From the NCBI GenBank assembly GCA_028694215.1, contig JAQUTW010000007.1:1-57159 (forward strand): a stretch of DNA of 57,159 nucleotides, in the 5' to 3' direction. The notes under the pieces were generated by a model. That model made no database searches and was not told where the DNA came from. It saw only the letters and a list, made by a program, of their open reading frames with translations. The position numbers and the translations under genes were made by a program. Positions 1-3,017 of the stretch are shown here, one piece after another. Position 1 is the first letter of the stretch; the number at the start of each line of letters is the position of its first letter. The DNA comes from Paludibacteraceae bacterium. GTDB lineage: Bacteria; Bacteroidota; Bacteroidia; Bacteroidales; Paludibacteraceae.

Positions 1-3000
1 GGGTCTGTTGCTCCAAATCCTGATATAATTTATCGGCATAGAACGGTGCAATCGGAGCCATCAGTTTGGCAACGGTTTTTCAGACAGGTGTAAAGTGTTT
101 GATAAGCCGACAGTTTGTCGGTATCCATTGTGCCGCCCCAGAAGCGTTTGCGGTTGAGGCGCACATACCAGTTGCTGAGGTTTTCGCCAACAAAATCCTG
201 AATGGCACGTCCGGCACGCGTAGGTTCGTAGTTTTCGTACTGCTCCGTAACCTCTTTTATCAAGCTGTTGAGCAACGACAAAATCCAGCGGTCGATTTCG
301 GGACGCTCGGACACCGGAATTTCTTTTTCTTCGCCCGTAAATTTGTCCACATTGGCATAAAGTGCAAAGAACGAATAGGTGTTGTAAAGCGTACCGAAGA
401 ATTTGCGGCGCACCTCTTCGATGCCTTCGGGGTCGAATTTCAAGTTGTCCCAGGGCGAAGCGTTGGTCATCATATACCAGCGCAACGGGTCGGAGCCGTA
501 TTTCTCGATAGTCGAGAACGGATCAACGGCATTGCCGAGACGTTTTGACATTTTATTGCCGTTTTTGTCCAACACCAAACCGTTTGAAATCACATTTTTA
601 AAGGCTACCGTACCGTCAATCATAGTGTGAATGGCGTGCAGGGTAAAGAACCAGCCGCGTGTTTGGTCAACTCCTTCACTTATAAAGTCGGCAGACCCCC
701 CAAGCCCCCCAAGGGGGGTGTTGGAAGTGTGTACGAACTCCTTAATGGTATTTAATACGAAATCAAGTTTGGCTGAAACTTCCTCATTTGTAAATCGAAT
801 TACACGATAGCCTTGTTTTTCTATGGCCTGTGTGCGCAAAGCGTCATATTCTTTTTGTTCGGGATTATTATGGTAACCGCCGTCCACTTCGATAACCAAT
901 TTTTTATCCAAGCAAGCAAAGTCGGCAATGCTATCACCTATGATATATTGTCGCGTAAAACGACAACCTTCTATATTTCTGCCACTTAAATATTGCCATA
1001 ATTTATCTTCTGCCGGTGTCGGATTTTTCCGTTGTTCTGCTGCCAACTCTTTCAAACGACCATATACTAACGGGTTGGCATCAGTGCAGCCCCCCATGGG
1101 GGGTTGGGGGGTCTGTGTCTCAAACGGATAATGCACCTGTGCATAAGGCATTGCGCCACTATCGAACCAAACGTCAATCAAATCGAGTTCGCGGTGCATT
1201 GGTTTGCCACCGGCAGAAACCAACACAATACCGTCCACGTAAGGGCGGTGCAAATCAATATTTTTCGGGTCGTAATTTCCCTTGCTGTAATCGCCGACCT
1301 TGAAATTTTTGTAGGGATTTTCTTTCATCACACCGGCGGCAATGGCTTTGTCTATTTCTGCAAAAAGTTCTTCGATGGAACCGATGCAGATTTCCTCTTT
1401 GCCGTCGTCGGTACGCCAAATGGGCAACGGAGTACCCCAATAGCGACTGCGGCTCAGGTTCCAGTCGTTCAGGTTTTCGAGCCACTTGCCAAAGCGTCCC
1501 GTGCCGGTCGATTCGGGCTTCCAATTGATGGTTTTGTTCAGTTCCATCATCTCTTCACGGCAAGCGGTACTCTTTATAAACCAGCTGTCTAACGGATAAT
1601 AAAGCACCGGTTTGTCTGTACGCCAGCAGTGCGGATAGTTGTGTACGTGCTTTTCGATACGGAAAGCGGTGCCTGCGGCTTTCATTTCCATACAAAGGCG
1701 GATATCAAGATTTTCGGCCTTTTGAGCAGCCGCTTCATCGTATTTTCCGGCTACAGTAAATTGTGGGTCGTAGGCATTTTTAACCCATTGACCTTCATAT
1801 TGTTTGTAAGCCTCTACGTTGACGCAGGCTTTTACAAATTCGGGGTTTAATTCGTCCAATTTCCAGTATTTTCCGGTGAAATCGACCATTGGGCGCGTTT
1901 CGTCTTTGTCGTTAATCATAAACAGCGACGGAATGCCGGCTTTTTTGGCCACAAAAGCATCGTCTGCGCCAAAGGTTGGTGCAATATGCACAATACCTGT
2001 ACCGTCTTCGGTGGTAACGTAGTCGCCGGCAATGACGCGGAAAGCATCGGCTTTGCGGTTGATGATTTTGCCGTCTGCCACTTCGCACGGATCCACCCAC
2101 GGAAAGAGCTGTTCGTATTCCAAACCTACCAAATCTGTACCTTTACATTCGCCAACAATTTCAAACGGTTCGGCTTTTTTCTCGCCAAAATAGTTATTTA
2201 CCAATGCTTTGGCAATGACATAAACAGCAGGCGCATCGGTATATGGATTTTGCGATTTCACCAAACAATAGTCGATTTTTGGTCCAACGCAAAGAGCTGT
2301 GTTCGAGGGCAATGTCCACGGAGTAGTTGTCCACGCAAGGAAGTAAGCATTATCGCCAAAACGATTACCTTTTATTTTAAACTGTGCCGTAACCGTGGTG
2401 TCTTTCACATCGCGATAGCAGCCGGGCTGGTTCAATTCGTGCGAACTCAAGCCTGTGCCGGCAGCCGGCGAATAGGGTTGAATGGTGTAACCTTTATAAA
2501 GCAATCCTTTGTTATACAGCTGTTTGAGCAGATACCAAAGGGTCTCTATGTATTTGTTGTCGTAGGTGATATACGGATTTTCCAAATCGACCCAATAGCC
2601 CATTTTTTGTGTCAGCGAAGTCCACTCTTTGGTGTATTTCATCACTTCGCGACGGCAGGCGGCATTGTATTCGTCCACACTGATTTTTTTGCCGATATCC
2701 TCTTTGGTAATGCCGAGCATTTTTTCTACACCGAGTTCCACCGGCAGTCCGTGTGTATCCCAACCTGCTTTGCGCTGCACCTGAAAACCCTGCATCGTTT
2801 TGTAGCGGCAAAATGTATCTTTGATGGTGCGCGCCATCACGTGGTGAATGCCGGGCATTCCGTTTGCCGATGGAGGACCTTCAAAAAACACGAACGAAGG
2901 GCAGCCCTCGCGGGTTTCGATACTTTGGTGGAATAAATCATTCTCCTCCCACTGTTTCAACATTTCTTTGTTGATTTCGGAGAGATTAAATTGGGTGTAC

Positions 3001-3017
3001 TCGTTAAACTTTTTCAT
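1..3017 (-). CDS. ileS: isoleucyl-tRNA synthetase with in-frame DUF559 insert; partial, frameshifted near 3' end
   Basis: Cytoplasmic class I synthetase that charges tRNA-Ile. Seen: the HIGH-type motif GIHH (residues 56-59), the editing domain with the TTPWTLPSN stretch, DVWFDSGAMPYAQ, and KMSKR near residues 821-825. The start ATG at 3017 lies about 40 bases behind a TAACTTTG promoter box. Two oddities. First, residues about 632-775 are a foreign DUF559 domain between HYPFE and ADFISEGVDQTRGWFF, where other IleS proteins have a short variable loop. Second, the open frame ends at base 30 with an unrelated tail (NRCQTDGSDCTVLCR), while the next frame continues the normal family sequence (TVAKLMAPIAPFYADKLYQDL) to the window edge. 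One extra A in the A5 run (76-80, minus strand) explains this. It is either a sequencing or assembly error or a real lesion. The rest of the anticodon-binding and zinc region lies outside the window. Confidence 0.95.
693..720. repeat. left terminal inverted repeat of the ileS cassette
   Basis: GC-rich 28-base end: AGACCCCCCAAG followed by the near-palindrome CCCCCCAAGGGGGG (705-718). It matches the reverse complement of 1087-1114 with one mismatch and two one-base gaps. None of its six reading frames contains a stop codon. On the coding strand of ileS it reads TPLGGLGG. Confidence 0.85.
1087..1114. repeat. right terminal inverted repeat of the ileS cassette
   Basis: Contains the perfect 14-base palindrome CCCCCCATGGGGGG (1090-1103) followed by TTGGGGGGTCT. 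It is the inverted partner of 693-720 and is also stop-free in all six frames. On the coding strand it encodes TPQPPMGG. The runs of six G or C stand out sharply from the AT-rich surroundings. Confidence 0.85.

Follow-up and report, generated by a model that had tools for sequence, protein, structure and literature searches.

The window, by which we mean the whole analysed stretch of 57,159 nt from a Paludibacteraceae genome, carries a complete DUF559 nuclease domain in frame inside its isoleucyl-tRNA synthetase gene (ileS), within an element that is bounded by hairpin-bearing inverted repeats and that has counterparts in many other conserved genes. The reading that we favour, with a probability of roughly 0.6, is that of a homing-type mobile nuclease element which would be made, without any splicing, as one domain of the protein that hosts it and would spread by cutting insert-free alleles. 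From the comparisons given below, the mobility of this putative protein-resident element is well supported and homing by cleavage appears to be its most likely mechanism, and we infer both its stable translation without removal and the movement of hairpin ends by the nuclease. The ileS ORF runs on the minus strand from 3017 to 30, toward the window start, and the features of the region are as follows.

30..3017, minus strand: ileS isoleucyl-tRNA synthetase ORF, the host gene (ORF list, Pfam and contig overlap)
692..1115, minus strand: complete 424-nt inserted element, copy 1, at IleS site A, between HYPFE(T) and ADFISEG
1087..1115, minus strand: gene-5′ element end, tail CAGACCCCCCAA plus hairpin CCCCCCATGGGGGG, translated QTPQPPMGG
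732..1055, minus strand: DUF559 nuclease domain (PF04480), with candidate catalytic D699, E710 and D712 of the ORF
692..720, minus strand: gene-3′ element end, hairpin CCCCCCTTGGGGGG plus tail CTTGGGGGGTCTG, translated NTPLGGLGGS
1..7, minus strand: outermost part of the copy 2 end repeat (site C), the rest of which lies on contig C3
76..80, no strand assigned: run of five T, against four T in contig C3; an indel that truncates the ORF

In the predicted protein, PF04480 matches residues 655-762 (E 4.7e-31; 107.3 bits against a cut-off of 20.6 in Pfam) and splits the synthetase Pfam match in two, and the ORF is continuous across it, which bears out the initial annotation of a complete DUF559 domain residing in frame inside ileS. 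With its score above the cut-off and the D/E/D residues intact, the window copy belongs to DUF559. The ORF translation also confirmed the proposed catalytic acids and the 46 residues that separate the insert from KMSKR, and the bounding repeats noted at the outset were recovered as an inverted repeat of 29 nt that is 83% complementary (692-720 and 1087-1115). Each repeat arm has its own short hairpin, CCCCCC-NN-GGGGGG, and each element end its outer tail (CAGACCCCCCAA and TTGGGGGGTCTG), and both ends are translated in frame with the host (QTPQPPMGG ... NTPLGGLGGS). When one mismatch was allowed, the hairpin was confined, within the 2.06-Mb assembly, to the ends of the two ileS elements, and the reversed control pattern was absent from that assembly; the inverted repeat therefore goes beyond chance.

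The second copy lies near the 3′ end of ileS on the neighbouring contig C3, between KLYQDLEQQ and VHLTKFP in the C-terminal part of the protein, and is identical to the first at 410 of 424 positions (96.7%). As the end of C3 and the window start overlap by 202 nt, with the T-run indel as the single difference, both copies belong to one ileS, and the end of the ORF at window position 30 is due to this indel at 76-80. We infer that the contig break was caused by the repeated element itself. At the site of the second copy, the 17 of 29 relatives whose loop could be read by pattern have 4-11 residues and no insert. Four DUF559 matches were found in this genome, namely the window copy, the one on C3 and two free-standing genes (C38 and C48), neither of which passed an end-repeat test.

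PF04480 matched in 46 of 120 relatives at E≤0.001 and in 136 of 393 genomes of the order at E≤1e-9. From the 120 relatives, 37 matches outside the window's genome with an open frame of >200 aa were examined, nine of which were ordinary multidomain proteins (L066-L074) and were dropped, and 28 were taken as inserts; the order-wide set, among the matches listed, added another 27 whose frames reach ≥300 aa. A scan of named genomes matched at least 591 stretches, with 566 of those listed being relatives, and its best 80 were kept (49 in ORFs of >250 aa and 31 free-standing). Altogether 106 embedded copies were considered, including the two own copies; two loci, L054 and L114, are counted twice in the totals of 106 and 105, since they recur as L264 and L298, which were kept out of the Mantel comparison. 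The 106 also include L261, whose ORF stops with DUF559 and gave no match to a further Pfam family.

The in-frame cassettes reside in ileS, leuS, valS, metG, metH, recG, uvrA, purL, prmC and mazG, and further hosts are a SpoIID-domain protein, sugar aminotransferases, a WbcJ-like reductase, an aldehyde dehydrogenase-MaoC protein, GH31 and restriction-modification proteins. For 18 scanned proteins the host names come from NCBIfam or Pfam; the others were assigned by similarity or by eye. A 'cupin' label for L104, L118 and L272 was given up in favour of the WbcJ-like reductase match of L104. Among the best 80 of the 566 relatives, embedded copies were found in Flavobacterium, Tenacibaculum, Winogradskyella, Pedobacter and Prevotella among others. 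Inserts in recG or metH are also present in records from isolates, namely of Tenacibaculum, Flavobacterium and Winogradskyella; one cultured carrier is Winogradskyella sediminis DSM 28134, with its insert in metH. The hosts are chiefly Bacteroidota, with one exception noted, the metH of one Ignavibacterium MAG. DUF559 was also seen inside restriction-modification genes (L060, L063, L105, L108, L109 and L124-L127), with L060, L124, L125 and L127 labelled by eye or by likeness to scanned ones.

The same sites are used repeatedly. Site A of ileS (HYPFE / ADFI-EG) is occupied in 14 distinct loci, and many leuS inserts, together with the valS and ileS site B inserts, stand directly before the TTRPxT / TTTPWT motif, a position which we take to be homologous across the three synthetases. 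In all eight carrier genomes tested (completeness 88% for the window's and 97-100% for the other seven), the insert-bearing ileS was the sole ileS at E≤1e-20. As read from the predicted frames, in-frame residence in a single-copy essential gene and recurrence at the same sites across genes and families are thus established.

The candidate catalytic residues, D59, E70 and D72 of the alignment, are intact in 102 of 105 embedded copies, a fraction biased upwards because selection favoured good domain scores and long open frames, which partly builds in both the intact acids and the open frame. All three copies with changed acids are in leuS, and the weak, left-out leuS copy L065, which has no second acidic motif, would be a fourth. 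These three copies (L064, L119 and L121) stay in frame despite the changed residues, which may point to decay or domestication. The dN/dS ratio of the insert was estimable in 9 of 14 pairs, one of them with saturated dS, and lay at 0.05-0.24; judged from these ratios the nuclease is under constraint. The predicted structure of the domain (mean pLDDT 84.6) matched best a putative endonuclease (3hrl) and the catalytic domain of I-Bth0305I (3r3p; Foldseek probability 1.00), and in profile searches the same two were found with E 4.8e-32 and 1.9e-6, respectively. The homing endonuclease I-Bth0305I is the nearest characterised relative of the domain, which is thus related in fold and sequence to the EDxHD homing endonucleases. 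Modelled at full length, the chimeric IleS gave a low-quality fold (mean pLDDT 69.7, pTM 0.49), which was set aside as evidence.

Alignment of IleS with and without the insert, which the initial annotation had suggested, found full, empty and scar states at one and the same site. Within the genus of G275, site A is full in G275, empty in G460, G462 and G463, and reduced to an end scar in G461. The three empty species have a plain loop, FE-NKEILDNKTVYP or near it, of which the full element of G275 replaces about nine codons; G461 (80% complete) retains the right-end tail only, as FE-GDLGGR-YP (DNA GGGGGATTTAGGGGGCC). At the same codon G001, a congener of the window's genome with no PF04480 match, has the left-end remnant FE-DPQPPKEGIKT, and G025 has at site A what looks like a right-end remnant. 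Vertical carriage of the insert by all close relatives, which had been named as evidence against mobility, is therefore not what is seen, as empty and scar species occur within genera. Inspection by eye of both ileS copies, and of G275 against G462, brought out no clear target-site duplication of the kind that DDE-type insertion sequences leave; loop codons are replaced instead. The ileS of G071 (L054) is full at site A and, before FLAWTTTPWT at site B, contains a 36-residue in-frame double palindrome without DUF559 (LSPSLSKGEG...APPSEDLGGL), apparently a deleted, non-autonomous element.

The descent of the inserts was compared with that of their hosts. A quick tree of 92 DUF559 domains, with L065 left out, rests on few columns and leaves 43 of its 89 inner branches open. 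One clade (SH-aLRT 100) unites 32 of the 36 free copies with 6 of the 9 restriction-modification copies, the housekeeping inserts lying outside, and host-gene labels change 21 times on the tree, compared with 51.2 times in shuffles (0 of 200 as low). Site A of ileS requires four changes, three of them forced by starred branches, so the site-A inserts are not one lineage, and after its own copy 2 the nearest neighbours of the window insert are inserts of spoIID, prmC and uvrA. On these placements, site specificity is loose.

Mantel comparisons, which were site-matched and covered four genes (L064 and L065 of leuS and L039 and L292 of valS were left out), gave no significant correlation between the ileS site A insert and a 160-residue host segment (r 0.14, p 0.20; 14 copies), and none for valS (r −0.27; 6 of 8 copies), compared with r 0.57 (p 0.0005; 21 copies) for leuS and r 0.64 (p 0.04; 6 copies) for recG. 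For metH and degT, an all-pairs comparison is unreliable, the pairs not being site-matched and host identity falling to 0.19; its same-site part was set aside as well. At site A of G051 and G071, which belong to one genus, the host segments are 0.89 identical and the inserts 0.56, so the insert was not simply inherited. By these measures, insert and host descent at ileS are discordant. Of 8 close pairs taken from the 14 dN/dS pairs, four had a smaller silent-site difference in the insert than in any same-length host window, the other four lying inside the host range, and a flank gradient, possibly from co-conversion, was seen in one pair on one side only (leuS L115/L116). Given the leuS and recG correlations and the four pairs with no silent-site deficit, much of the inheritance is vertical, and the descent results as a whole thus indicate vertical persistence together with lateral entry.

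Pairs of flanking repeats, which the initial annotation had proposed to look for at other DUF559 domains, proved common in other proteins and at free-standing genes. Counting an inverted repeat when it scored >5 above the best of 30 shuffles, we found such ends in 61 of 106 embedded copies, compared with 4 of 318 control positions of equal spacing in the same loci, and in 44 of 64 free-standing copies (three more without flanks were left out); the other 45 embedded copies had no end repeat detectable in this way. Other flank lengths and shuffle numbers gave ends in 16 of 36 and 26 of 31 free copies and in 21 of 49 embedded ones. The usual plan of an end is a C/G-run hairpin with a G-rich tail, such as TTTAGGGGGCT or GGGGTGAGGT.

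Hairpins also occur alone. Solo hairpins of the end family of the metH element were found in G031 and G024, and 17 of the 21 hairpins in the 20 stretches examined in G031 have the tail of this family. Fifteen of these 17 lie outside any open frame of >122 codons; the other two are in frame in longer ones, namely in purL, which also bears a DUF559 element, and in an aminotransferase-like frame (labelled by eye). In that purL (L216, L044), the DUF559 element lies 0.8 kb from the solo hairpin and has ends of another family. Among the 120 relatives, from which 11 weak-match genomes were dropped, five or more hairpins were found in 10 of 35 clear DUF559 carriers and in 0 of 74 non-carriers (Fisher 4e-6; Mann-Whitney p 0.0012), and the reversed-pattern control showed no such enrichment (p 0.32). 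Each element adds at most two hairpins, a number that 8 genomes exceed. In G014, 6 of the 8 DUF559-type hairpins examined (L336, L357-L363) adjoin a different hairpin that is also present near the Y1 gene of that genome, so its hairpin count is probably Y1-related, with one hairpin family possibly hijacked by another mover; this second hairpin is CCCAGGGT...ACCCTGGG. The solo hairpins of G091 are of a different family from the leuS element end with which they were compared. In view of the mixing in G014 and the mismatch in G091, cognate solo hairpins are supported in two genomes only, G031 and G024.

REP and REPIN repeats are linked to RAYT, and a composite REP-type element, whose REP-like ends would be moved by a Y1 (RAYT-like) transposase with DUF559 as a passenger, is an explanation that we consider unlikely, if worth weighing. 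Of the 120 relatives 79 have Y1_Tnp matches, as do 9 of the 10 genomes rich in hairpins, the paired hairpins of G014 fit a Y1 mover, and a DUF559-type hairpin is present in 3 of 20 Y1 stretches (L336, L345 and L350, the last stretch chosen for a known one). However, with the same 11 weak-match genomes dropped, five or more hairpins were found in 9 of 33 Y1-positive genomes with DUF559 and in 0 of 37 without it, and among genomes lacking DUF559 the presence of Y1 had no significant bearing on hairpin number (p 0.73). Moreover, the 20 Y1 stretches yielded 18 hairpins, 15 of them of other types, and 11 stretches had none, by a filter that misses stems of <75% G+C, and Y1 transposition would leave the conservation of the DUF559 catalytic site unexplained. 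The Y1 results lower this explanation without removing it. Insertion might otherwise have been untargeted, with survival in tolerant loops only and the nuclease serving another purpose, for example defence; the loop lengths of empty alleles place the sites in variable linkers, some DUF559 copies sit in restriction-modification genes, and shared sites could mirror tolerant loops rather than cutting specificity. We regard this as improbable, as the site A junction falls at nearly the same codon in many genera whose elements have different ends, and as the inserts cluster by host gene on the tree.

The low dN/dS values and the partial tracking of hosts by leuS and recG inserts would also suit an ordinary accessory domain with a cellular role that is inherited vertically with IleS, but the many unrelated hosts, the patchiness within genera, the scars, the inverted repeats, the two copies in one protein and the failure of ileS inserts to track their hosts make this decidedly improbable. 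For ileS, vertical inheritance as the sole explanation was rejected on the full, empty and scar states and the Mantel result; some old leuS or metH inserts could be accessory domains of this kind. That the host gene is essential would be compatible with removal of the insert from RNA or protein, since inteins too favour conserved genes, but no Rfam match was found at E≤1 in window positions 300-1600, no intein or Hint domain was among the Pfam matches (E≤0.01), and the insert and its ends form one open frame with the host; on these grounds group I/II intron and intein identities were rejected, and removal is very improbable. An assembly artefact could be suspected from the MAG origin, the contig boundary at the second copy and the indel at 76-80, and is scarcely credible when the same site is occupied in other assemblies and recG and metH inserts are present in the isolate records of the three genera named above.

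In the favoured homing-type reading, the element would be a Vsr/I-Bth0305I-type (DUF559) endonuclease gene between hairpin inverted repeats with G-rich tails, seated in frame where conserved housekeeping proteins have linkers and translated along with them, unspliced, as an added domain, so that it would need no promoter or start codon of its own. The nuclease would cut insert-free alleles at the cognate site and repair would copy the element in, replacing a few loop codons. New sites would be reached occasionally, as possibly exemplified by the second copy in the window's ileS; loss by deletion would leave an in-frame end scar, and decay after loss of the catalytic residues would be an alternative fate. 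The original suggestion of a mobile DNA element resident as a protein insert is supported: repeat pairs are widespread, and those contrary findings that could be looked for did not turn up. For the nuclease driving its own spread by cutting empty alleles, which the initial annotation offered as an open idea, the support is indirect and comes from the silent-site comparison of insert and host, the disagreement of insert and host similarity at ileS, the full, empty and scar states, and the relationship to I-Bth0305I.

Selfish nucleases within genes are usually thought harmless only when they have a splicing partner; Dassa et al. reportedly wrote in 2009 on 'Fractured genes'. The present comparisons point to a possibly undescribed kind of mobile DNA that resides within the proteins of its host, and the apparent survival of a nuclease as a permanent domain of an essential enzyme suggests that protein loops are a habitat for mobile DNA. 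This would account for long insertions in LeuS, IleS, MetH and RecG of Bacteroidota, would give a candidate cognate enzyme for the G/C-run palindrome family, and would reveal one way in which core enzymes gain new peptide segments. More tentatively, and at somewhat less than even odds, there could be a whole class of selfish elements living permanently inside host proteins, in which a homing nuclease serves as a domain of essential enzymes, converts empty alleles phylum-wide, jumps between genes and mobilises its hairpin ends as solos, and in which in-frame scars reshape the loops of aminoacyl-tRNA synthetases and core enzymes.

As far as the available parts of the published accounts go, several known systems share some of these properties. 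We found no description of in-frame DUF559 elements in the portions of the open-licence literature searched, which did not include bioRxiv. I-Bth0305I (PDB 3r3p), of the EDxHD or Vsr-like type, resembles the present element in its nuclease fold and in having full, empty and decayed states, and has an extended, multi-domain DNA-binding form (PMC3943268, in part). By its PDB name it is a mobile intron protein, whereas for the present nuclease no intron or intein was found, and it is a domain of the host protein and lies between hairpin inverted repeats. DUF559 has been assigned to the EDxHD homing family in Thermosynechococcus, according to the part of that account available (PMC9403480). A LAGLIDADG homing endonuclease fused in frame to mitochondrial rps3 in Ophiostomatales offers a similar in-frame arrangement, there with a ribosomal protein gene; it differs in being of fungal mitochondria and of another nuclease family, and palindromic ends and spread through many genes go unmentioned in the available portion of that text (PMC7902536). 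Free-standing DUF559 genes (PF04480; NCBIfam PRK09767) have the same domain and, in the 44 of 64 copies given above, end repeats, and for the most part (32 of 36) they group on the tree in a clade that the housekeeping inserts lie outside.

Rickettsia palindromic elements, of about 150 bp, encode a short conserved peptide and are translated within host proteins (PMC10969869, in part). The present element is like them in that palindromic sequence occurs in frame inside many unrelated genes and is translated with the host protein, and unlike them in having a complete nuclease domain at recurrent homologous sites, where the available excerpt of that paper mentions no enzyme. The short tailed hairpins and the solos in trans of an enzyme gene recall REP and REPIN sequences, as described in excerpts of PMC3116915 and PMC3733652. 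Unlike those of REP/RAYT, the present hairpins have DUF559 as their associated enzyme, and in the set tested their abundance goes with DUF559 and not with Y1. In G024 (C1:3132915-3133903), six CTCTCCATTTGGAGAG hairpins lie mostly about 126 nt apart, possibly as a tandem array.
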